Assembly (NCBI RefSeq): GCF_014649875.1
Contig: NZ_BMTW01000002.1
Coordinates: 434,001 to 498,000, forward strand
Source: Streptomyces rubiginosohelvolus
GTDB lineage: Bacteria; Actinomycetota; Actinomycetes; Streptomycetales; Streptomycetaceae
DNA length: 64,000 nt
Reading direction: 5' to 3'
The stretch's first letter is position 1, and each line of letters opens with the position of its first letter. Positions 34,294 through 43,903 of this stretch are shown in pieces. The notes beneath the pieces were generated by a model. It searched no databases. It had not been told where the DNA came from and saw only the letters and a list, made by a program, of their open reading frames with translations. The translations under genes and the position numbers were made by a program.

Positions 34294-34366
34294 GCCTCCG
34301 TGGCCGCTTTCTGGTTACGCCTCCGCGGCCGCTTCCCGGTTACACCTCTGCGGCCGTTTCCGGTAC
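34294..34366. repeat. Three tandem copies of a 23-25 bp unit across a gene end
   Basis: Units at 34294-34318, 34319-34343 and 34344-34366 share the pattern CCTC-G-GGCCG-TT-C-GGTAC. The middle unit contains the stop codon of the COG0523 gene (34340-34342), so the two outer-lying copies look like duplications of that gene's 3' end. Confidence 0.75.
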
Positions 34367-35482
34367 GTCGACCTCCGCCTCGTCGGCCTCCGCATCCCCT
34401 TCACGGGCGGGCTCCGGTGCGTAGCGGAGCACGCCCCACATGGCACGTTCGATGTCCGGTGCGTCGGGCCCCGGCTCCGCGCGGCAGGCGGCCAGCCCCT
34501 CGTGCAGCGCTGCGGCGTCGATGCCCGCGCCGATCATGACCAGCTGGGTGAGCCGCTGTTCGCCGCGCGCCCACGGCCGGGGCACGAAGCGCAGGAACCG
34601 GCCGACCGCATGCAGCGCGTAGGTGTTGTCGCGGTCCCCCGCGCCGAAGTCGACGAACCCCTTGATCCGGTAGAGCCCTTCGGGCCGGGAGTCGAGGAAG
34701 GCCATGAAGCGGCGCGGGTCCATCGGCACGTCGGCGGTGAAGTCGACGCTCTCGTACGCCGCGTGGAGGTGGTCGGCGTGCCCGTGCCCGTCGCACTCCT
34801 CGTGCTCGTCGCACTCCTCCTGACGCAGCAGGTCCTCGAAGCTCAGCTGCCCCGCCATCTCCTCGCCGTCCGGCCGCAGCGCGGGGTCGAAGAGCAGCTC
34901 GGGGTCGATCCGCCCGTGCTCGGCGGAGATCACGGCGGCGGGGCCGCTCAGCTCCGCGACCGTCGCCCGCAGCCGCTCCCGTTCGGCCTCCCCCACCCGG
35001 TCGGTCTTGTTCAGGACGACGAGGTCGGCGACGGCCAGATGGCGGTCGAGCTCGGGGTGCCGTCGGCGGGTGGCGTCGAACTCCGCCGCGTCGACGACCT
35101 CGACGAGACCCCCGTACAGGATGTGCGGGTTGTCGCTGGCCAGCAGCATGCGGACGAGTTCCTGGGGTTCGGCCAGTCCGCTCGCCTCGATGACGATCAC
35201 GTCCAGCCGGGCGGACGGCCGGGTCAGGGACTCCAGGAAGGTGTCGAGTTCACTCGCGTCCACGGCGCAGCACAGGCAGCCGTTGCCCAGCGAGACCGTC
35301 GAGCCGACCTGCCCCGAGACGGTCATGGCGTCGATCTCGATGGCCCCGAAGTCGTTGACGATCACGCCGATCCGGGTGCCCGCCCGGTTGCGGAGCAGAT
35401 GGTTCAGGAGCGTGGTCTTGCCGGAGCCGAGGAAGCCCGCCAGGACGACGACCGGGATCTGCGGGATACGGGGCGGGGTCAA
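34340..35482 (-). CDS. COG0523 (CobW/G3E) GTPase, predicted metallochaperone
   Basis: 380 residues. Walker A is GFLGSGKTTLLNHLL (16-30), the family metal-binding motif GCLCC is at 68-72, and NKTDRV is present. A loop at 221-240 is very rich in Cys, His, Asp and Glu (EECDEHEECDGHGH), a metal-sensing or storage feature. The C-terminal CobW domain has the FRIKGFVDF-like segment. COG0523 proteins hand zinc, cobalt or other metals to enzymes using GTP. TTG 35482 follows AGGAAGG and lies 23 bp after the citrate synthase stop. Confidence 0.87.
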   Translation of the reverse strand: MTPPRIPQIPVVVLAGFLGSGKTTLLNHLLRNRAGTRIGVIVNDFGAIEIDAMTVSGQVGSTVSLGNGCLCCAVDASELDTFLESLTRPSARLDVIVIEASGLAEPQELVRMLLASDNPHILYGGLVEVVDAAEFDATRRRHPELDRHLAVADLVVLNKTDRVGEAERERLRATVAELSGPAAVISAEHGRIDPELLFDPALRPDGEEMAGQLSFEDLLRQEECDEHEECDGHGHADHLHAAYESVDFTADVPMDPRRFMAFLDSRPEGLYRIKGFVDFGAGDRDNTYALHAVGRFLRFVPRPWARGEQRLTQLVMIGAGIDAAALHEGLAACRAEPGPDAPDIERAMWGVLRYAPEPAREGDAEADEAEVDVPETAAEV

Positions 35483-35505
35483 CGGGAGCCTTCCTGGGAA
35501 CGTCG

Positions 35506-36660
35506 TCAGAGTGCCGGGACCGGCTGCGGCGGGGGTGCGCCGACGTAGCGGGCCGCCGGGCGGATGATCTTCGAGTCCTCCGCCTGCTCCAGGATATTGG
35601 CGCTCCAGCCGATCACCCGCGCCGCACAGAAGGTGGGGGTGAACATCGCGCGCGGCAGCCCGCACAGCTCCATGACCACCCCGGCGTAGAACTCCACGTT
35701 GGTGTGCAGCTCCCGGCCCGGCTTGAGCTCGGCGAGGATCGCCTCGACATGGGCCTCCACCTCGACGGCGAAGTCGACGAGGGGGCCGCCGAAGCTCTGG
35801 GCGATCGACTTGAGCATCCGGGAGCGCGGGTCCTCGGTGCGGTAGACGGGGTGGCCGAAGCCCATGATGCGGCGGCCGGCCAGGACCTGTTCGCGGATCC
35901 AGCCGTCGATCCGGTCGGGGGTGCCGATGGCGTCCAGGGTGTCCAGGGCCCGGCTGGGGGCTCCGCCGTGCAGCGGTCCGGAGAGCGCGCCGACCGCTGC
36001 CACCAGGCAGGCGGCCAGGTCGGCTCCGGTGGAGGCGACGACGCGGGCGGTGAAGGTGGAGGCGTTGAAGCCGTGGTCGACGGTCGAGACGAGGTACTGC
36101 TCGACCGCCCTGGCCTGGTCGGGTCCGGGCTCCGAACCGGTCAGCATGTACAGGTAGTTCGCGGCGTGCGGCAGGTCGGCGCGGGGTGCGACCGGCTCCA
36201 GGCCCTGGCCGAGGCGGTGGAGAGCGGTCAGGATCGTGGGCACGGCCGCGCAGACGGCGAGTGCGTCCTCGCGTCGGCGCCCGGCGTCGATGTCGTACAC
36301 CGGGCGGAAGCCGGCCGAGGCGCCGAGCAGGGAGAGCGCGGTGCGCAGTCCCGCGAGGGGGCCCGAGACGGCGCTCGCGCGGGCGATGGCGGGCAGGGCC
36401 TCGGTCACATCGGCGGGGAGCGTGCGCAGGCTCGCCGTACGGGCGGCGAAGTCGGCGGCCTCGGCCCGGTCGGGCAGCTCCCCGTGGAACATCAGGTACC
36501 ACACGTCCTCGAAGCCGCGGGTCTGCGCCAGCTCGATCGCCGAGTACTGGCGGTAGTGGTAGAAGCCTTCGCGGCCGCGGACGTCACCGAGGGCGGTGTC
36601 GGTGACGACGACACCAGCGAGGCCACGGGGGACGGCGGGGACGACAGGGGTGGTGGTCAT
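35506..36660 (-). CDS. Citrate synthase (second-type)
   Basis: A 384-residue short-form citrate synthase, condensing acetyl-CoA (or propionyl-CoA) with oxaloacetate. Catalytic histidines are His231 (SGPLHGGAPS) and His270 (GFGHPVYRTEDPRS). At the position of the catalytic Asp (NVDFYSG in classical enzymes) it has Glu323 (NVEFYAG). The AMFTPTFCAARVIGWSANILEQ segment is conserved. The ATG at 36660 follows GGAGGAGAG. It is divergent from an HTH-citrate synthase gene with palindromic sites between, and co-transcribed with the COG0523 gene. Confidence 0.9.
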   Translation of the reverse strand: MTTTPVVPAVPRGLAGVVVTDTALGDVRGREGFYHYRQYSAIELAQTRGFEDVWYLMFHGELPDRAEAADFAARTASLRTLPADVTEALPAIARASAVSGPLAGLRTALSLLGASAGFRPVYDIDAGRRREDALAVCAAVPTILTALHRLGQGLEPVAPRADLPHAANYLYMLTGSEPGPDQARAVEQYLVSTVDHGFNASTFTARVVASTGADLAACLVAAVGALSGPLHGGAPSRALDTLDAIGTPDRIDGWIREQVLAGRRIMGFGHPVYRTEDPRSRMLKSIAQSFGGPLVDFAVEVEAHVEAILAELKPGRELHTNVEFYAGVVMELCGLPRAMFTPTFCAARVIGWSANILEQAEDSKIIRPAARYVGAPPPQPVPAL

Positions 36661-36686
36661 GGCTGCTCTCTCCTCCGTGCATGCAA

Positions 36687-36743
36687 CATTGATTCGACTG
36701 TCCATGCTTGACTTGAGATCTGTCAATGTTGATTGAATCAATG
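36687..36743. promoter_or_regulatory. Candidate operator cluster in the divergent citrate synthase promoter
   Basis: An AT-rich island with a perfect 13-bp palindrome TTGATT-G-AATCAA (36729-36741), inverted elements CATTGATTC (36687-36695) and GAATCAATG (36735-36743), and a further TCAATGTTG (36723-36731). The 110-bp gap separates genes for citrate synthase and for an HTH-citrate synthase. Binding by the latter is inferred. Confidence 0.6.
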
Positions 36744-36771
36744 CATGTGCAGAGTGGATACGGTGGTTTCC

Positions 36772-38061
36772 ATGACGGATCAACCAGAGCCCGAGCAGCA
36801 CGACGCGCCCCGGCTCACCACCCGGCAGGCGGCCGAGCTGCTGGGCGTGAAGCCGGAGACGGTGTACGCCTACGTCAGCCGGGGTCAGCTCAGCAGCGTG
36901 CGGGCCGCCGGAGGGCGGGGCAGCACGTTCGACGCCGAGGAGGTCCGGGCGCTGGCGCGGCGTTCGGGCCGCCGTGACCCGTCTCCGGCCGGGGGTGACC
37001 TCGCCTTCCGGACCGGCATCACGCTCATCGAGGACGACCGCTGCTACTTCCGCGGGGTCGACGCGACGGAGCTGGCCCGGCGCTACGGCTACGAGGAGGT
37101 CGCCGAGTGGCTGTGGACGGGGGAGCTACGGCCCGGCGCCCGGTTCGCCGCACCCGACGGGACCCTCACGGCGACCCGCAGGGCGGTCGAGGCGCTGCCC
37201 GCGCACAGCGGGTCGACGGACCGGCTGCGGGTGGCGGTGACGGCTGCCGCGGCCACGGATCCGCTGCGGTTCGACCTGTCGCCGGCGGCGGTATTGAACA
37301 GTGCGCGCGGCCTGATTCCGACGCTGGTGGGCGCGTTGCCCGTGCTGGGCGGTCCGGCGGCCGAAGGGGATTCGCTGGCGGCGGAGCTGTGGTCGCGGCT
37401 CACCGCGGAGTCGGCCGATGCCCCGTCCCTCGCCGTGCTGGACGCGGCCCTGGCGCTGCTGGTCGACCACGACCTGGCGGCCTCCACCCTGGCCGCCCGG
37501 GTCGCCGCCTCCGCTCGGGCCCATCCGTACGCCGTGGTCTCGGCGGGCCTCGGCGTGCTGGAGGGGCCGCTGCACGGTGCGGCGAGCGGCCTGGCGCACC
37601 GGCTGCTCCGGGAAGCGGTGGACCGGGGCAGCGCGGTCCCCGTGGTCGCCGACCATCTGCGGACCGGGCGGCGGGTGCCCGGCCTGGGCCACCGGATCTA
37701 CCGGGGCGAGGACCCCCGGGCGACCGTCCTGTTCGAGCTGCTGGCGGAGGTGCCGCAGGCGGCCGGGGCGCTGGCGGCGGCCCGTGAGGTGGTGGCGACG
37801 ACGGCGCGGCACGCTCCGCTGCACGCCAACATCGACCTGGCGCTGGCCGTCCTGTCGGTCTCCCGGGGGATGGCGGCGGACGCGGGCGAGACCGTGTTCG
37901 CGGTGTCCCGTACGGCGGGCTGGATCGCCCACGCGCTGGAGGAGTACGGGGAGCGCCCGCTGCGGATCCGGCCGAGCGGGCAGTACTCCGGGCCCCGGCC
38001 GCCCCAGCCCCTCCCCCGGGACGGATCAGGTCCGGACCAAGGGCCGGGCAGCGCAAATTAG
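36772..38061 (+). CDS. Citrate synthase-fold protein with N-terminal helix-turn-helix
   Basis: 429 residues. Residues 13-65 form an excisionase/MerR-like DNA-binding domain (RLTTRQAAELLGVKPETVYAYVSRGQLSS...STFDAEEVRALAR). Residues 75-410 are citrate-synthase fold with the catalytic set His268 (EGPLHGAAS), His307 (GLGHRIYRGEDPRA) and Asp355 (ANIDLALAV) all retained, so it may bind or turn over oxaloacetate/acyl-CoA. It probably acts as a metabolite-responsive regulator of the adjacent divergent citrate synthase gene. ATG 36772 was chosen; a TTG at 36733 would overlap the palindrome. Confidence 0.85.
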   Translation: MTDQPEPEQHDAPRLTTRQAAELLGVKPETVYAYVSRGQLSSVRAAGGRGSTFDAEEVRALARRSGRRDPSPAGGDLAFRTGITLIEDDRCYFRGVDATELARRYGYEEVAEWLWTGELRPGARFAAPDGTLTATRRAVEALPAHSGSTDRLRVAVTAAAATDPLRFDLSPAAVLNSARGLIPTLVGALPVLGGPAAEGDSLAAELWSRLTAESADAPSLAVLDAALALLVDHDLAASTLAARVAASARAHPYAVVSAGLGVLEGPLHGAASGLAHRLLREAVDRGSAVPVVADHLRTGRRVPGLGHRIYRGEDPRATVLFELLAEVPQAAGALAAAREVVATTARHAPLHANIDLALAVLSVSRGMAADAGETVFAVSRTAGWIAHALEEYGERPLRIRPSGQYSGPRPPQPLPRDGSGPDQGPGSAN

Positions 38062-38068
38062 CTACGGA

Positions 38069-39088
38069 TCACAGGGAATTCTCGCGCGGCGGCTGGGCGG
38101 TGGATCCGCGCACCACCAGCTCCGGCTCGAAGAGCAGCTCGTCCGAGGGCACGGCCCGCCCGCCGATCTGCACCGAGAGCAGCTCCACGGCCGCGCGCCC
38201 CATGGCCTCGATGGGCTGGCGGACGGTGGTGAGGGGCGGCTCGGTGCAGTTCATGAAGGCCGAGTCGTCGTAGCCGACGATCGACACGTCGCCGGGCACC
38301 GAGAGCCCCCGGCGGCGGACGGCGCGCACGGCGCCCAGCGCGAGCGGGTCGCTGGCGCAGATGATGCCGGTGACACCGCGCTCCAGCAGCCGCGTCGCGG
38401 CGGCCTGCCCGCCCTCCAGCGAGAACATGGCCCGGGCCACCCACTCGTCGGGGATGCTCGTTCCGGCCTCCTCGGCGAGCACCCGGGCGGCGGCGAGCTT
38501 GCGCTGCGACGGCACGTGGTCGGACGGTCCGAGGACGAGTCCGATGCGGTCGTGGCCGAGCGAGACGAGGTGACGCCAGGCCTGCTCGACCGCGACGGAA
38601 TCGTCGCAGGAGACGCCGGGGAAGCCGAGGTGTTCGATGGCCGCGTTGATCAGAACTACGGGGATCTTGCGGTCGGCGAGCACCTTGTAGTGGTCGTGCG
38701 GGGCGTCGGCCTGGTGGTAGAGGCCGCCCGCGAAGACCACGCCGGAGACCTGCTGCTGGAGGAGCAGCTCGACGTAGTCGGCCTCGGAGACGCCGCCCTT
38801 GGTCTGGGTGCAGAGCACCGGGGTCAGCCCCTGCTGGGCGAGCGCGCCGCCGACCACCTCGGCGAAGGCCGGGAAGATCGGGTTCTGCAGCTCCGGCAGG
38901 ACCAGGCCGACCAGCCGGGCGCGTTCGCCGCGCAGCTGGGTCGGGCGCTCGTAGCCGAGGACGTCCAGCGCGGAGAGGACGGCCTGCCTGGTGGCGTCGG
39001 AGACGCCCGGCTTGCCGTTCAGCACCCGGCTGACCGTCGCCTCGCTGACTCCCACCTTCTGGGCCACTTGAGCAAGTCGTCGCGTCAT
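38069..39088 (-). CDS. LacI-family transcriptional regulator
   Basis: 339 residues. The N-terminal LacI helix-turn-helix is intact (RRLAQVAQKVGVSEATVSRVLNGKPGVSDATRQAVLSALDVLGYERP), followed by a periplasmic-binding-protein-like sugar-sensing domain (LVGLVLPELQNPIFPAF, VSIVGYDDSAFMNCTEPPLTTVRQP). No sugar transporter is adjacent, so its targets are elsewhere or it acts on its own promoter. ATG 39088 gives the exact family N-terminus. Its stop lies 7 bp from the convergent HTH-citrate synthase stop. Confidence 0.92.
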   Translation of the reverse strand: MTRRLAQVAQKVGVSEATVSRVLNGKPGVSDATRQAVLSALDVLGYERPTQLRGERARLVGLVLPELQNPIFPAFAEVVGGALAQQGLTPVLCTQTKGGVSEADYVELLLQQQVSGVVFAGGLYHQADAPHDHYKVLADRKIPVVLINAAIEHLGFPGVSCDDSVAVEQAWRHLVSLGHDRIGLVLGPSDHVPSQRKLAAARVLAEEAGTSIPDEWVARAMFSLEGGQAAATRLLERGVTGIICASDPLALGAVRAVRRRGLSVPGDVSIVGYDDSAFMNCTEPPLTTVRQPIEAMGRAAVELLSVQIGGRAVPSDELLFEPELVVRGSTAQPPRENSL

Positions 39089-39091
39089 GAA

Positions 39092-39126
39092 CGCAAGATT
39101 AGCGCAAGAAACGCAAGAAGATTGCG
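39092..39126. promoter_or_regulatory. Candidate LacI-type operator
   Basis: Directly upstream of the LacI start: CGCAA-GAAGA-TTGCG inverted repeat (39112-39126) and two more CGCAAG direct half-sites at 39092 and 39103. The position suggests autoregulation. Confidence 0.55.
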
Positions 39127-39149
39127 TTGATGGCGAACTCCCGGGACCT

Positions 39150-39218
39150 CTCACGGAAGCAGCGCTGAATCCCTCACGGAGGCGCCGCTGAAACGCTCAC
39201 AGACGCGGCGGCCGGAGG
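39150..39218. repeat. Three 23-bp iterons upstream of the sensor kinase gene
   Basis: Units start at 39150, 39173 and 39196 with exact 23-bp spacing. The first two share CTCACGGA-GC followed by CGCTGAA; the third keeps CTCAC-GA-GC and then decays. They lie between the LacI gene and the kinase gene (start 39307). Regular spacing of about two helical turns suggests binding of tandem regulator dimers. Confidence 0.65.
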
Positions 39219-39306: not shown

Positions 39307-40992
39307 ATGAACGCCCCACCGACCCCCGGCCGGGGACCGCGCCGGTTCGGCTGGCCTCAGCGGGTCTTCTCCCAGGTCCTGCTGATGCAGCTGGCCATCA
39401 TCACCGGTGTGACGATCCTGGTCACCGGCCTCTTCCTGGCCCCGCTCAGCGACCAGCTGGACGACCAGGCGATGCGCCGCGCCCTGGCCATCGCCCAGTC
39501 CACCGCCGCCGACCCGGACATCGTGGAGCACCTGAGCAGCACGGACCCGTCGGACGGGGGCCCGGTCCAGTCGGCCGCCGAGCGGGTGAGGCGGGCGACC
39601 GGCGCGGAGTACGTCGTCGTCATGAACCAGCGCGGGGTGCGCTGGTCGCACCCCGACACCCACCGGATCGGCGCGGTCGTCTCCACCGACCCCGGTGAGG
39701 CGCTGCGCGGCCGGGAGGTGATGGAGATCGACAGCGGCACCCTCGGCCGCTCGGCGCGGGGCAAGGTGCCGTTGTTCGGCCCGTCCGGCGAGGTGATCGG
39801 CGCGGTGTCGGTGGGTATCGCGTACGACAGTGTCCGCGCCCGGCTCCTCGCGGCGATCCCGGGGCTGCTCGCGTACGCGGGCGGGGCCCTGGCCGTCGGT
39901 GCGCTCGCCGCGTATCTGATCTCCCGGCGCTTGCAGCGGCAGACCCATGACCTGGCGTTCTCCGACATCTCCGCGCTGCTGACCGAACGCGAGGCCATGC
40001 TGCACGGCATCCGCGAGGGGGTCGTCGCCCTCGACGGGGCCGGCCGCGTCCGGCTGCTGAACGACGAGGCGCAGCGGCTGCTGGGGCTGGGCCCGGAAGC
40101 GGCGGGCCGGCCGCTGGAGGAGGTGCTGGGCGACGGGAGGACCACGGACGTGCTGGCCGGGCGGGTGGTCGGCGACGACCTGCTGGCGGTACGGGGCAGC
40201 CGGGTGCTGCTGGCCAACCGGATGCCCACGGACGACGGCGGAGCCGTGGTGACCCTGCGCGACCGGACCGAGCTGGAGCACCTCGGCCGCGAGCTCGACT
40301 CCACCACGGGGCTGATCGACGCCCTGCGCGCCCAGGACCACGAGCACGCGAACCGGCTGCACACCCTGCTGGGGCTGCTGGAGCTGGAGATGCACGAGGA
40401 CGCGATGGAGTTCGTGACCGAGGTGGTGGGCGTGCACCGGGCGACGGCCGAGCAGGTCACCGAGAAGGTCCAGGACCCGCTGCTGGCCGCCCTCCTCGTC
40501 GGCAAGACGACGGTCGCCGCCGAGCGCGGTGTCTCGCTGCGACTGGCTCCCGGCACGCTGCTACCGGACCGGGTGGTCGATCCCCGGGGTCTGGTGACGG
40601 TGGTGGGCAACCTCGTCGACAACGCCACGGACGCGGCGGCCGGATCGGACGGGGCGCGGATCGAGGTCGGCCTGCGGACCGAGGGCCGTACGGTGATCCT
40701 GGGGGTGCGCGACAGCGGCCCCGGCGTCCCGCAGGACCAGCACGCGTCGATCTTCACGGAGGGCTGGTCCACCAAGGACGTCCCGGCGCACGGCAAGCGC
40801 GGCCTCGGGCTCGCCCTCGTACGACGGCTCGCGGAGCGCCAGGGAGGCAGTGTGACGGTGTCCGGGGCGGACGGCGGCGGCGCGGTGTTCACGGTCGTGC
40901 TGCCGGAGGCGCTGGCGGAGCCCCCCGCGGGCTCCCCGGAAGACCGTCCGCCGCACCCCACGCAACCGGCGACGACGGGAGAGCAGCGGTGA
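39307..40992 (+). CDS. CitA/DcuS-family sensor histidine kinase
   Basis: 561 residues. TM1 is at about 22-46, followed by a periplasmic PAS-like sensor (about 47-178; typical GAEYVVVMNQRGVRWSHPDTHRIG and GSARGKVPLFG-type ending), TM2 at about 185-206, a cytoplasmic PAS (about 225-325) and a kinase with the family H-box DHEHANRLHTLLGLLEL (His345). The ATPase motifs are NLVDNATDAAAG and GKRGLGLALVRRLAERQGG. Such kinases sense di- or tricarboxylates outside the cell. The stop overlaps the regulator start by 4 bp. Confidence 0.9.
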   Translation: MNAPPTPGRGPRRFGWPQRVFSQVLLMQLAIITGVTILVTGLFLAPLSDQLDDQAMRRALAIAQSTAADPDIVEHLSSTDPSDGGPVQSAAERVRRATGAEYVVVMNQRGVRWSHPDTHRIGAVVSTDPGEALRGREVMEIDSGTLGRSARGKVPLFGPSGEVIGAVSVGIAYDSVRARLLAAIPGLLAYAGGALAVGALAAYLISRRLQRQTHDLAFSDISALLTEREAMLHGIREGVVALDGAGRVRLLNDEAQRLLGLGPEAAGRPLEEVLGDGRTTDVLAGRVVGDDLLAVRGSRVLLANRMPTDDGGAVVTLRDRTELEHLGRELDSTTGLIDALRAQDHEHANRLHTLLGLLELEMHEDAMEFVTEVVGVHRATAEQVTEKVQDPLLAALLVGKTTVAAERGVSLRLAPGTLLPDRVVDPRGLVTVVGNLVDNATDAAAGSDGARIEVGLRTEGRTVILGVRDSGPGVPQDQHASIFTEGWSTKDVPAHGKRGLGLALVRRLAERQGGSVTVSGADGGGAVFTVVLPEALAEPPAGSPEDRPPHPTQPATTGEQR

Positions 40993-41663
40993 TCGAGGTC
41001 CTGATCGTCGACGACGACGTGCGGGTGGCGCAGATCAACGCTGCGTACGTCGCCAAGGTCCCCGGCTTCCGGGTGGCCGCCCAGGCCCACTCGGCGGCCG
41101 GGGCACTGGCGACGGTCGAGGAGGTCCCGGTCGACCTGATCCTGCTGGACCACTATCTGCCCGACCGCAACGGCCTCGCCGTCGTGCGGGAGCTGCGCCG
41201 CCTCGGCCATCAGGTCGACGTGATCATGGTGACGGCCGCCCGGGACGTCGCCACCGTGCAGGACGCGATGCGGCACGGTGCGCTCCAGTACCTGGTGAAG
41301 CCGTTCACGTACGCCGGTCTGCGCGCGAAGCTGGAGGCGTACGCGGCGCTGCGGCAGACGCTCGACGGGGGCGGGGAGGCCGAGCAGGCTGAGGTGGACC
41401 GGCTCTTCGGCGCGCTGTGGGCGACGGGCGAGCCGGCCCTCCCCAAGGGCCATTCCCCCACCACGGCCGAACTCGTCCGGGGGGCCCTGCGCGGCGCCGA
41501 CGGCCCGCTGTCCGCGCAGGAGATCGCCGACAGTGCGGGGATGAGCCGGCAGACGGCCCAGCGCTATCTGAAGCTGCTTGAGCGCACCGGCAAGGTCCGG
41601 CTGACGCTGCGGTACGGCGAGACGGGCCGCCCGGAACACCGGTACGCCTGGGCCGCGGGCTGA
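40989..41663 (+). CDS. CitB/DcuR-family response regulator
   Basis: 224 residues. The receiver has VDDD, Asp54 (LILLDHYLPDRNG) and KPFTYAGLRAKLEAYA, then a linker and a C-terminal helix-turn-helix (LSAQEIADSAGMSRQTAQRYLKLLERTGKVRL) typical of the CitB class. It starts with GTG inside the kinase stop (GTGA). Likely targets are carboxylate uptake genes; the symporter operon that ends 21 bp away on the opposite strand is the obvious candidate, by analogy with DcuSR and MctC-type loci. Confidence 0.92.
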   Translation: MIEVLIVDDDVRVAQINAAYVAKVPGFRVAAQAHSAAGALATVEEVPVDLILLDHYLPDRNGLAVVRELRRLGHQVDVIMVTAARDVATVQDAMRHGALQYLVKPFTYAGLRAKLEAYAALRQTLDGGGEAEQAEVDRLFGALWATGEPALPKGHSPTTAELVRGALRGADGPLSAQEIADSAGMSRQTAQRYLKLLERTGKVRLTLRYGETGRPEHRYAWAAG

Positions 41664-41683: not shown

Positions 41684-43276
41684 CTATGCCGCCCCGGCCC
41701 CCGTCAGCGCCCGCACCTCGGCCTCGGCGTGCTTGGCCTCGTCGGGCGGCTCGGGCGAGATGACCGTACCGATCCAGCCGGCCAAGAAGCCGAGCGGGAT
41801 CGAGACCAGGCCCGGGTTCTCCAGGGGGAAGAGCTGGAAGTCGACGCCGGGGAAGAGGGATGTCGGGCTGCCCGAGACGACGGGTGAGACCAGCACCAGG
41901 ACGACCGCCGGGACCAGGCCGCCGTACACCGCCCAGACCGCGCCCCGGGTGGTGAAGTTGCGCCAGAACAGCGAGTAGAGCAGGACCGGGAGGTTCGCCG
42001 AAGCGGCCACGGCGAAGGCGAGGCCGACGAGAAACGCCACGTTGAGGTCCTGGGCGAGCAGCCCGAGACCGATCGCGACCGCACCGATCCCGGCGGCGGC
42101 GGTACGCGCCACGGCGACCTCGCTGCGCTTCTTGCGCCCGGGGCGGCGGAGCGAGGCGTAGAGGTCGTGGGCGACCGAGGCGGACGAGGCGAGCGTGATG
42201 CCCGCGACGACGGCCAGGATGGTGGCGAAGGCGATGGCGGCGACCACGGCGAAGAGAATCGTTCCACCGGTGGAGCCCTCGCCGCCGCCCAGATCGAGGG
42301 CCAGCAGCGGGATCGCGGTGTTGCCCGCCGCGTTCGACGCACGGACCTCGGCGGAGCCGACGAGTGCGGCGGCGCCGAACCCGAGCACGATCGTCATCAG
42401 GTAGAAGCTGCCGATCAGGCCGATGGACCAGACGACGGACCGGCGCGCGGCGCGGGCGGTGGGCACGGTGTAGAAGCGCGACAGGATGTGCGGCAGCCCC
42501 GCCGTGCCGAGGACCAGGGCCACGCCCAGGCTGATGAAGTCGAAACGCGAGGTCCAGTCCCCTCCGTACCGCAGGCCGGGGGCGAGGAAGTCCTTGCCGT
42601 GGCCGCTGCGTTCGGCCGCGGTGTTGAGCAGGCTGTTGATGTTCCCGTGGAAGTGGACCAGGACGAGCACGGTGAGCGCGACGGCTCCGGCCATCAGCAG
42701 GACGGCCTTGACGATCTGGATCCAGGTGGTGGCGCGCATACCGCCGAAGGACACGTAGATCACCATGAGCGCGCCGACCCCGACGACGGTCCAGGACCGG
42801 GCCGCGTCGCTCGTACCGCCGAGCAGCAGGGCCACCAGGCTGCCCGCGCCGACCATCTGGGCGACCAGATACAGCACGGAGACGGTGACGGACGAGGTGC
42901 CGACGGCGGTACGCACCGGGCGCTCCGCCATCCGCGCGGCGACCACGTCGGCCAGCGTGAACCGGCCGCAGTTGCGGACGAGTTCGGCGACGAGCAGCAG
43001 AACGACCAGCCAGGCGACGAGGAAGCCGACGGAATAGAGCATGCCGTCGTAGCCGAAGAGGGCGATCAGCCCGGAGATGCCGAGGAAGGAGGCTGCCGAC
43101 ATGTAGTCCCCGGCGATGGCGAATCCGTTCTCCATGGGCGAGAACAGGCGTCCGCCGGCGTAGAACTCCTCGGCGGAGCCCTGCCGGTTGCGGCCGACCC
43201 AGGTGGTGATGAAGAGCGTCACCGCGATGAACGCGCTGAACAGCAGCAGGGCGAGGGTCTGGTGGTCTCCTTTCAC
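41684..43276 (-). CDS. Sodium:solute symporter, ActP/MctC-like monocarboxylate transporter
   Basis: 530 residues with about 13 transmembrane helices of the SSS family. Family signatures include FYAGGRLFSPMENGFAIAGDYMSAASFLGISGLIALFGYDG and GLPHILSRFYTVPTARAARRSV. Closest in type to acetate permease ActP and corynebacterial MctC (acetate, propionate, pyruvate). The GTG start overlaps the DUF485 stop by 4 bp (GTGA), so both are made from one mRNA. It faces the CitA/CitB-type two-component genes tail to tail. Confidence 0.92.
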   Translation of the reverse strand: MKGDHQTLALLLFSAFIAVTLFITTWVGRNRQGSAEEFYAGGRLFSPMENGFAIAGDYMSAASFLGISGLIALFGYDGMLYSVGFLVAWLVVLLLVAELVRNCGRFTLADVVAARMAERPVRTAVGTSSVTVSVLYLVAQMVGAGSLVALLLGGTSDAARSWTVVGVGALMVIYVSFGGMRATTWIQIVKAVLLMAGAVALTVLVLVHFHGNINSLLNTAAERSGHGKDFLAPGLRYGGDWTSRFDFISLGVALVLGTAGLPHILSRFYTVPTARAARRSVVWSIGLIGSFYLMTIVLGFGAAALVGSAEVRASNAAGNTAIPLLALDLGGGEGSTGGTILFAVVAAIAFATILAVVAGITLASSASVAHDLYASLRRPGRKKRSEVAVARTAAAGIGAVAIGLGLLAQDLNVAFLVGLAFAVAASANLPVLLYSLFWRNFTTRGAVWAVYGGLVPAVVLVLVSPVVSGSPTSLFPGVDFQLFPLENPGLVSIPLGFLAGWIGTVISPEPPDEAKHAEAEVRALTGAGAA

Positions 43277-43749
43277 CGTCCGAGCCCTCTCGTCATCTCC
43301 TGGGTGTCCCAGCGCAGATCGAGCGCCGCCCGGTCCCTGCGCAGCCGCGCGTGCCGTGCGTACGCCCAGGTGAGCAGGAACGTGGTGAGGAACTGGCCGA
43401 GACCGGCCACCATCGCTACGTTCACCGCTCCGGCGACCGGGCGGGCCATCAGAGCGGGAGCGGTGGTCGCTGCGACGACGTAGGCGAGATACCAGAGCAG
43501 GAAGGCGAGGGCGGCGGGGGCCACGAAGCGGCGGTAGCGGCGGCGCACCTCGCGGAAGGCGTCGCTGCGGTGCACCTCCAGATAGATGTCGGCCGCGCTG
43601 GGCCGGGGGTCCGGCTCCGCCGCACCGGACGCGTCGAGGGCCGCGGCACCTCCCGTACCGTCCTGGTCGCCCCGGCCGGGGGCCGGCACGTCGTCCCACG
43701 GGTCGTCGAGCCGCACTCCCGCGGTCTGAGGCCCTGCTTCCTTCTCCAC
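43273..43749 (-). CDS. DUF485 membrane protein (symporter partner)
   Basis: A 158-residue small membrane protein of the YjcH/DUF485 family that accompanies ActP-like symporters. It has two transmembrane helices (FVAPAALAFLLWYLAYVVAA and VNVAMVAGLGQFLTTFLLTWAYARHAR) after a hydrophilic N-terminal region, preceded by the family motif FREVRRRYRRF. The GTG at 43749 has GGGGAG 7 nt upstream; an earlier in-frame start lacks one. Confidence 0.88.
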   Translation of the reverse strand: MEKEAGPQTAGVRLDDPWDDVPAPGRGDQDGTGGAAALDASGAAEPDPRPSAADIYLEVHRSDAFREVRRRYRRFVAPAALAFLLWYLAYVVAATTAPALMARPVAGAVNVAMVAGLGQFLTTFLLTWAYARHARLRRDRAALDLRWDTQEMTRGLGR

Positions 43750-43903
43750 CGAACAACTCCCCTGATCCGCGGACCTTTTCGGCCGCACGGCCAACGATGG
43801 GCGGTTCGGGAGGATCCCGGGCGCGTCATTCGCCCGACTTCACCCCTTCAGGTGACAGATATCCGGGACTGCTGCGCGCTTCCCCGACAAGGCCCCGGGA
43901 AAC

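Follow-up and report, generated by a model that had tools for sequence, protein, structure and literature searches.

The window analysed in this study is the whole 64,000-nucleotide stretch of Streptomyces rubiginosohelvolus (contig NZ_BMTW01000002.1, positions 434,001 to 498,000, forward strand). It contains a gene, here called HTH-CS, which encodes a winged helix-turn-helix (HTH) domain joined to a citrate-synthase fold and stands divergent from a second citrate synthase gene, CS2. We read HTH-CS as a local autoregulating transcription factor in which the citrate-synthase fold serves as the effector domain, with a probability of about 0.8. Sequence comparison gives good support to a local role on the divergent CS2 and on the HTH-CS gene itself: conservation of a candidate operator goes with that of the recognition helix in two phyla, and the operator often stays with HTH-CS where the partner gene is a different one. 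The architecture, the active-site residues, the recognition helix, the conservation of the operator in two phyla and its linkage to HTH-CS were established by computation. An HTH with an enzyme fold and a conserved, linked candidate operator, by which an enzyme-derived transcription factor would be recognized, were both found. The two genes are as follows.

36772–38061, + strand: HTH-CS gene, 429 amino acids, ATG at 36772, winged HTH and citrate-synthase fold
35506–36660, − strand: CS2, a citrate synthase of CitA type (like B. subtilis citrate synthase 1), divergent from HTH-CS

Domain architecture and predicted structure of HTH-CS

The HTH-CS protein was found to contain the following parts.

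36814–36963, + strand: winged HTH domain, residues 15–64, BldC/Xis/MerR type (HTH_17, AlphaFold2 and Foldseek)
36853–36879, + strand: recognition helix, residues 28–36 in the model; the conserved TxYAYVSRG extends to residue 38
37003–37974, + strand: citrate-synthase-fold domain, residues 78–401
37573–37575, 37690–37692 and 37834–37836, + strand: catalytic codons H268, H307 and D355, numbered from the ATG at 36772

The HTH_17 profile of Pfam matched residues 15–64 with 35.1 bits (cut-off 27) and the Citrate_synt profile PF00285 matched residues 78–401 with 201 bits (cut-off 27). The profiles and the numbering from the ATG bear out the initial annotation, in which an HTH was joined to a citrate-synthase fold keeping His268, His307 and Asp355. 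Profiles of the MerR-type winged HTH were also reached, namely MerR PF00376 (28.2 bits, equal to the cut-off of 28.2) and MerR_1 PF13411 (22 bits, cut-off 21.6), followed by TIGR01764 'excise' of NCBIfam (29.5 versus 28.8). The cut-off of the BldC family NF033787 was missed (25.7 bits versus 77), as were the NCBIfam cut-offs for citrate and methylcitrate synthases, TIGR01800 (155.7 versus 421.3) and NF009005 (153.5 versus 332).

The AlphaFold2 model of HTH-CS, built with 29 sequences, had a mean predicted local distance difference test (pLDDT) score of 83 and contained a winged HTH, a linker and a citrate-synthase fold; residues 67–79 were modelled as the low-confidence linker. Foldseek on this model returned solved citrate and methylcitrate synthases with a best E of 1e-13 (all 50 matches listed). 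A phmmer search revealed no solved structure for the whole fusion, as the matches start at residue 75 or later (60 of the 62 matches listed). The HTH domain alone was modelled with a pLDDT of 87, and its best Foldseek matches were the BldC–DNA complex 6ama and the Pukovnik excisionase Xis 4j2n; SoxR was also matched. BldC and the phage excisionases (6ama, 6amk, 4j2n) are alike in the HTH fold, with TM-scores of about 0.73–0.80, but are small stand-alone proteins. In the MerR family the HTH is followed by a long coiled-coil helix for dimerisation, and the operator lies inside a 19–20-bp spacer between −35 and −10. In the HTH-CS model no such coiled coil was seen after the HTH, where the citrate-synthase fold follows the linker. 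The assignment of HTH-CS to the MerR family proper was rejected, and the likeness is restricted to the HTH.

The intergenic region and the candidate operator

The start codons of HTH-CS and CS2 are separated by 111 bp, in agreement with the divergence across a gap of about 110 bp described in the initial annotation. The CS2 start at 36660 is preceded by a good Shine-Dalgarno sequence, GGAGGAGAG (36668–36676, − strand). The gap contains the following elements, of which the promoters are predicted.

36721–36743, no strand: conserved candidate operator TGTCAATGTTGATTGAATCAATG, consensus TGTCAAyrTTGATTnAATCAAt (36721–36742), containing a 13-bp palindrome at 36729–36741
36689–36706, no strand: second conserved block TTGATTCGACTGTCCATG, similar to a reported MtrA site in the SCO5831–SCO5832 intergenic region
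36697–36726, − strand: candidate CS2 promoter, −35 TTGACA at 36721–36726 inside the operator, 18-bp spacer, −10-like GACAGT at 36697–36702
36759–36764, + strand: candidate HTH-CS −10 TACGGT, 7 nucleotides before the ATG, possibly leaderless

A column alignment of Streptomyces and close relatives was made from 109 segments, of which 103 were usable with the anchor and 98 were distinct; columns set by the anchor itself carry no information. The consensus contained, in order, TTGATTCGACTGTCCATG, TTGACT and TGTCAAyrTTGATTnAATCAAt, followed by an immediate fall to background. The palindrome TTGATT-G-AATCAA (36729–36741) and the CATTGATTC/GAATCAATG arms (36687–36695 and 36735–36743), both noticed earlier, are present; the conserved site proved wider than 13 bp, and the left arm at 36687 falls in the second block. 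A single long palindrome CATTGATTC...GAATCAATG, with 39 bp between the arms, was rejected, as the arms lie in two separately conserved blocks. The sequence GGATACGGTG was present at the HTH-CS candidate promoter in many of the compared loci (not counted).

The candidate operator covers the candidate −35 of CS2 and not the 18-bp spacer between −35 and −10. It lies about 15 bp before the candidate −10 of HTH-CS and is closer to the HTH-CS start than to the CS2 start. This arrangement bears on the sign of the regulation. An activator, which would remodel the CS2 promoter in the manner of MerR upon ligand binding, would fit an HTH of the MerR/BldC class and an operator abutting the candidate promoter. 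The 18-bp spacer of the candidate CS2 promoter, the position of the operator at its −35 instead of between −35 and −10, the lack of a MerR-type coiled coil in the model and the nearness of the site to the HTH-CS start all weigh against it, and we consider activation unlikely. Repression of both genes by the occupied operator would be the simplest mechanism, because the operator lies over the candidate −35 of CS2 and just upstream of the −10 of HTH-CS.

Conservation of the operator within the genus

Three operator patterns, differing slightly, were used for the genus, for other genera and for the phylum, and their counts are not directly comparable. Orthologues of HTH-CS were sought, at E below 1e-100, in 61 genus genomes, including that of the window. 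HTH-CS was present in 36 and CS2 in 36, with both in 35 and neither in 24; a lone HTH-CS was found in G013 and a lone CS2 in G027. The pattern TCAAYRTTGAN{2,8}ATCAA had a single match in the 7.5-Mb genome of the window (G000), at 36723–36741. Over all 61 genomes it matched 37 times, with 32 of the matches falling at the HTH-CS/CS2 locus and 5 elsewhere, and the reversed pattern had 0 matches in the same genomes. The idea of a regulator was to be given up if the palindrome was not conserved in species carrying the pair; it was found to be conserved, with the pattern at the locus in 32 of the 36 genomes containing HTH-CS (missing in G011, G013, G031 and G047). The off-locus matches were one each in G002, G021 and G051, and one extra each in G011 and G059. 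In G002, G021 and G051, all devoid of HTH-CS, the operator-like sequence TCAACGTTGAGATTATCAA was identical.

A scan of named genomes gave at least 595 stretches encoding a relative, and the best 80, hence near relatives, were compared. The closest were Streptomyces, with 92% identity for HTH-CS of S. fimicarius. CS2 was divergent in 74 of these 80, on the same strand in 1 and not found in the flank in 5. Of the 80 loci, 76 contained the core TCAAYRTTGA no more than 500 bp upstream, including all 74 with a divergent CS2; it was not found in L089, L121, L124 and L136.

Two further arrangements were observed. CS2 of G012 (L035/L036) was split, apparently by a chromosomal rearrangement, and its 5′ part and the operator stay beside HTH-CS. 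A second, divergent HTH-CS-like match with 36% identity, from residue 9, was found in G003 (G003:C22:28245-29459).

The operator in other genera and phyla

The comparison was extended to 34 loci, consisting of 19 from other actinobacterial genera, those of Embleya and Nonomuraea, and 13 proteobacterial plasmid loci. TCAAnnTTGA-N1-9-ATCAA was found upstream of HTH-CS in 25 of the 34. Markov resampling predicted 0.002, and among 2010 control windows drawn from these loci 1 contained a match; these figures are descriptive, as the pattern was written after several sites had been seen and some loci belong to the same genus. In L159 a site was present and overlapped the HTH-CS start, and near matches were seen in L158, L048 and L166. 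The spacing between TTGAT and ATCAA was mostly 3 in Streptomyces, mostly 6 in family f18, and 7 in the matching proteobacterial sites.

A sample of 296 genomes of the phylum was searched with a threshold of E ≤ 1e-35, and 46 were matched. The match reached the HTH in 26 (query start 1–19), was a fragment in G087 and covered only the citrate-synthase part in 19, which start at 41 or later and were counted as ordinary citrate synthases by match extent alone. As a partly independent check, the stricter pattern TCAAYRTTGATN{2,8}ATCAA was found in 36 of the 296 genomes, and its reversed control in 3. It stood at the locus in 19 of the 26 genomes with a full HTH-CS; of the remaining genomes with the pattern, G171 had it off the locus and another was G199. 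The site in G199 lies between a citrate synthase and a divergent HTH-CS cut by the contig end, which was unlisted in the protein search and was revealed by the pattern.

Partner genes and the linkage of the operator to HTH-CS

In the 19 full members fetched from other genera, an upstream citrate synthase on the opposite strand was found in 16 and was lacking in L044, L045 and L061. In L059 another open reading frame (beta-lactamase-like by eye) stood between HTH-CS and the upstream citrate synthase. The operator was kept beside a partner other than citrate synthase in L045, L156, L157, L159, L161, L164 and L165. An HMGL-family enzyme was divergent in L044 (by eye), L045 and the Nonomuraea locus L156, and the two that were profiled, with 236 and 240 bits against a cut-off of 463, resembled NifV homocitrate synthase most closely. 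HMGL-family enzymes, like citrate synthase, condense acetyl-CoA with a 2-oxoacid. The partner in a Comamonadaceae plasmid and in Cupriavidus was a 2-hydroxyacid dehydrogenase (in Cupriavidus with a profile below the cut-off), followed in the Comamonadaceae plasmid by fumarylacetoacetate hydrolase, short-chain dehydrogenase/reductase and tricarboxylate-transporter genes. A DUF2332 gene was the partner in Roseomonas, a major facilitator superfamily transporter (by eye) or a cupin in Paraburkholderia, and a citrate synthase in Agrobacterium and Ensifer.

The orphan CS2 of G027 had no operator in the roughly 140 bp inspected upstream and no pattern match in its genome. In G032, where CS2 and HTH-CS are in tandem, a copy of the operator was found at each gene, that of HTH-CS being slightly degraded. 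From these comparisons, the candidate operator is tied to HTH-CS and not to one partner gene. Plain promoter conservation as the sole cause was rejected, as a similar site stands beside HTH-CS in Proteobacteria with unrelated partners.

The same partners bear on the idea of a hetero-oligomer, in which HTH-CS would pair with CS2 subunits and CS2 or its occupancy would signal its own repression. The shared fold and the presence of both genes in 35 of the 37 genus genomes with either gene are in its favour. It is made improbable by the groups in which the partner is no citrate synthase and by some Streptomyces in which HTH-CS has no adjacent CS2.

In the Roseomonas gilardii plasmid locus L164, the HTH-CS frame was interrupted and unannotated and an operator-like site was present; HTH-CS of R. 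mucosa (L159) was whole.

Active site and recognition helix across the family

A residue table of 150 rows was prepared, in which some genomes appear twice via two collections; L005 (own gene), L019 (the gene already present as L039), and L036 and L038 (no HTH-CS) were omitted. In all 116 rows of Streptomyces and its close relatives, and likewise in each of the 20 readable rows from other actinobacteria, H233, H268, H307, R316, D355 and R400 were intact; these include the catalytic His/His/Asp and the citrate-binding Arg positions. L156, outside these 20, contained H/H/D by eye. The YAYVSRG of the recognition helix was invariant in the actinobacterial rows except for YSYVSRG in L120 and L051, and the helix was among the most conserved stretches of HTH-CS.

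Among the 13 proteobacterial rows, 10 were readable at the catalytic positions, with H/H/D present in 6 and lost in 4 (L165–L168). L160, L163 and L164 were unreadable there and do not enter this count; the translation of L163, read separately, resembles L165. The helix was readable in 11, of which 8 contained YxYVSRG, and the exceptions were YANVSRG in L162, YAYVGRK in L167 and YAYASRG in L169. The recognition helix was largely kept even in members with a degenerate catalytic triad. Eight further members contained the Pfam citrate-synthase domain and an HTH, and the HTH was below every cut-off only in L165. L165–L168, from Burkholderiales plasmids, each stand divergent from a gene for a cupin, a dioxygenase component or a porin. 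They are annotated as 'citrate synthase' or 'citrate synthase family protein', and dioxygenase, cupin/aldolase and porin genes stand beside them. These four are probably misannotated regulators.

The genome of the window contains 4 genes with PF00285. The best match of CS2 among solved structures was B. subtilis citrate synthase 1 (2c6x). In CS2 the third catalytic position is Glu, as in that enzyme, whereas HTH-CS contains Asp; the other two citrate synthases of the genome contain Glu in one and Asp in the other. CS2, described earlier as a normal citrate synthase, is indeed a citrate synthase of CitA type, but one with Glu instead of Asp. The view of CS2 as the catalytically standard member of the pair was reversed.

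These residues raise the question of a bifunctional trigger enzyme, an active synthase of the citrate or methylcitrate type which would also repress, so that transcription would track substrate or flux. It would be a special case of the local-regulator reading, with which its odds overlap. The active-site positions kept in all readable actinobacterial rows and the standard Asp of HTH-CS versus the Glu of CS2 favour it. HTH-CS falls far under the two NCBIfam citrate-synthase cut-offs given above, and the four of 10 readable proteobacterial members that lack the catalytic residues kept the HTH and are divergent from catabolic or transport genes; we hold a trigger enzyme to be possible, with the odds somewhat against it.

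Proposed mechanism

In the mechanism proposed for the local transcription factor, a citrate-synthase dimer would present two winged-HTH heads on flexible linkers to the operator. The operator would consist of TTGAY half-sites, as TGTCAAyrTTGAT-N3-ATCAAy in Streptomyces, with spacers of 3 to 7 and mostly 6–7 in other groups. Placed between HTH-CS and the divergent gene, it would bind the heads, and its occupancy would repress both genes. Known citrate synthases close on oxaloacetate. In HTH-CS, closing of the domain on oxaloacetate, acyl-CoA or citrate may relieve or tighten the repression. The earlier proposal of a regulator that senses such a ligand and controls its paralogue was supported by the comparison in its local part, with action on CS2 and on its own gene; oxaloacetate, acyl-CoA and citrate are candidate ligands, suggested by the intact active site. 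The ligand need not be identical in all members, because the catalytic residues are lost in some proteobacterial ones.

A broader view can be put forward tentatively. HTH-CS would belong to a widespread family in which an enzyme of entry into the tricarboxylic acid (TCA) cycle became a sensor. The actinobacterial members would be catalytically competent and would convert substrate occupancy (oxaloacetate and acyl-CoA) into transcription of a citrate synthase or a homocitrate-synthase-like enzyme. The proteobacterial members would have been recruited to other clusters, many with a near-identical operator code and some without catalysis but with the HTH.

Evidence weighing against a local regulator

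Several observations weigh against the reading of HTH-CS as a local regulator, including the after-the-fact choice of the pattern for other genera. Nine of the 34 loci failed that pattern (L044, L048, L059, L158, L159 and L166–L169). The stricter pattern was not at the locus in 7 of the 26 genomes with a full HTH-CS (G013, G073, G134, G146, G171, G251 and G304), and 15 genomes contained it with no HTH-CS detected. Among the members with lost catalytic residues, the strict site was seen only in L165, with a near match in L166 and none in L167 and L168. L169, whose upstream neighbours are codirectional, yielded no site. In G013, L121, L124 and L136, HTH-CS was kept without an adjacent CS2 and without the operator, and the active-site residues of the G013 protein were intact; these may be recent losses, or HTH-CS may serve a different function in them. 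An enzyme would likewise be expected to keep H268, H307 and D355 intact. Part of the intergenic conservation may be owed to MtrA or to the promoters. In one report, MtrA was found by gel shift to bind TTGACTTAACTGTCCA between SCO5831 and SCO5832 (citA3/citA4) in S. coelicolor, and late in growth both genes, called citrate synthases, were more highly expressed in the mtrA mutant (PMC12323332). The bound TTGACTTAACTGTCCA resembles the block at 36689–36704 and not the operator; going by that text, MtrA binds the block next to the operator in S. coelicolor, and some of the conservation is not due to HTH-CS.

These data count in favour of an ordinary extra citrate synthase, annotated as citA3 in S. 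coelicolor, in which the HTH would be incidental and the sites would serve MtrA/GlnR or the promoters. The excerpts available of proteomic and transcriptomic papers likewise group SCO5831 with TCA enzymes or call it citrate-synthase-like. The operator stands apart from the MtrA-like block and is found again in Proteobacteria and beside unrelated partner genes, and the recognition helix is highly conserved, all of which render an ordinary enzyme quite improbable.

Relation to known systems

A characterised regulator combining an HTH and a citrate synthase was not found in the open-access literature, most subscription papers being outside this scope, and the family is apparently uncharacterised. 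BirA and RbkR are HTH–enzyme fusions with other enzyme folds, local or autoregulatory in use and catalytically active; HTH-CS shares the fusion with them and may be active too. In B. subtilis citR–citA, a dedicated regulator is divergent from a CitA-type citrate synthase. The layout is like that of HTH-CS and CS2, but CitR is of LysR type and has no citrate-synthase fold.

The nearest concept, as far as its consulted text goes, is BzdR (PMC3602430). Like HTH-CS, it contains an N-terminal DNA-binding domain and an enzyme-derived effector, and it regulates a catabolic pathway. Unlike HTH-CS, whose active-site residues are intact in actinobacteria, its shikimate-kinase-like fold has lost activity and binds benzoyl-CoA. 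The citrate synthase CitA of Caulobacter was described as having a regulatory role that does not depend on its catalysis, and the available part of the paper mentions no DNA-binding domain of CitA; an E. coli gltA mutant was not rescued by CitC, whose locus tag adjoins that of citB (PMC7083601).

We infer that SCO5831 is the HTH-CS orthologue from the distances given in PMC12323332 (−92 and −16) and from the name 'citrate synthase-like' in the excerpts available (PMC9739823, PMC7324645, PMC8981147). SCO5831/SCO5832 would be the orthologous pair, probably, by names, distances and a similar intergenic block. The pair differs in being described as two citrate synthases under MtrA, and 'helix-turn-helix' is absent from the accessible text of PMC12323332.

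If the local-regulator reading is true, a family of citrate-synthase-fold sensors would read substrate availability directly, and the annotation of extra citrate synthases would be corrected, probably including citA3 of S. coelicolor. The family could also be a source of biosensors for TCA intermediates. As its catalytic residues are intact in some members and lost in others, it offers a natural series for the evolution of an enzyme into a transcription factor.

Neighbouring genes

One further gene was found downstream of CS2.

34340–35485, − strand: CobW/G3E-type GTPase gene, same strand as CS2, start uncertain

In G013 (L037) and L121, which are devoid of CS2 and the operator, a CobW-type gene (by eye) was directly divergent from HTH-CS. 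On the other side, a LacI-type regulator (38069–39154, − strand) lies directly 3′ of HTH-CS and is convergent with it. One gene from HTH-CS, a DcuS/MalK-like sensor kinase and a DcuR-like response regulator are encoded at 39307–41663 (+ strand); these proteins, of the C4-dicarboxylate/citrate-sensing type, scored below the family cut-offs. The kinase/regulator pair is followed by a gene for a symporter of sodium:solute type (41684–43756, − strand), recognized by eye only.

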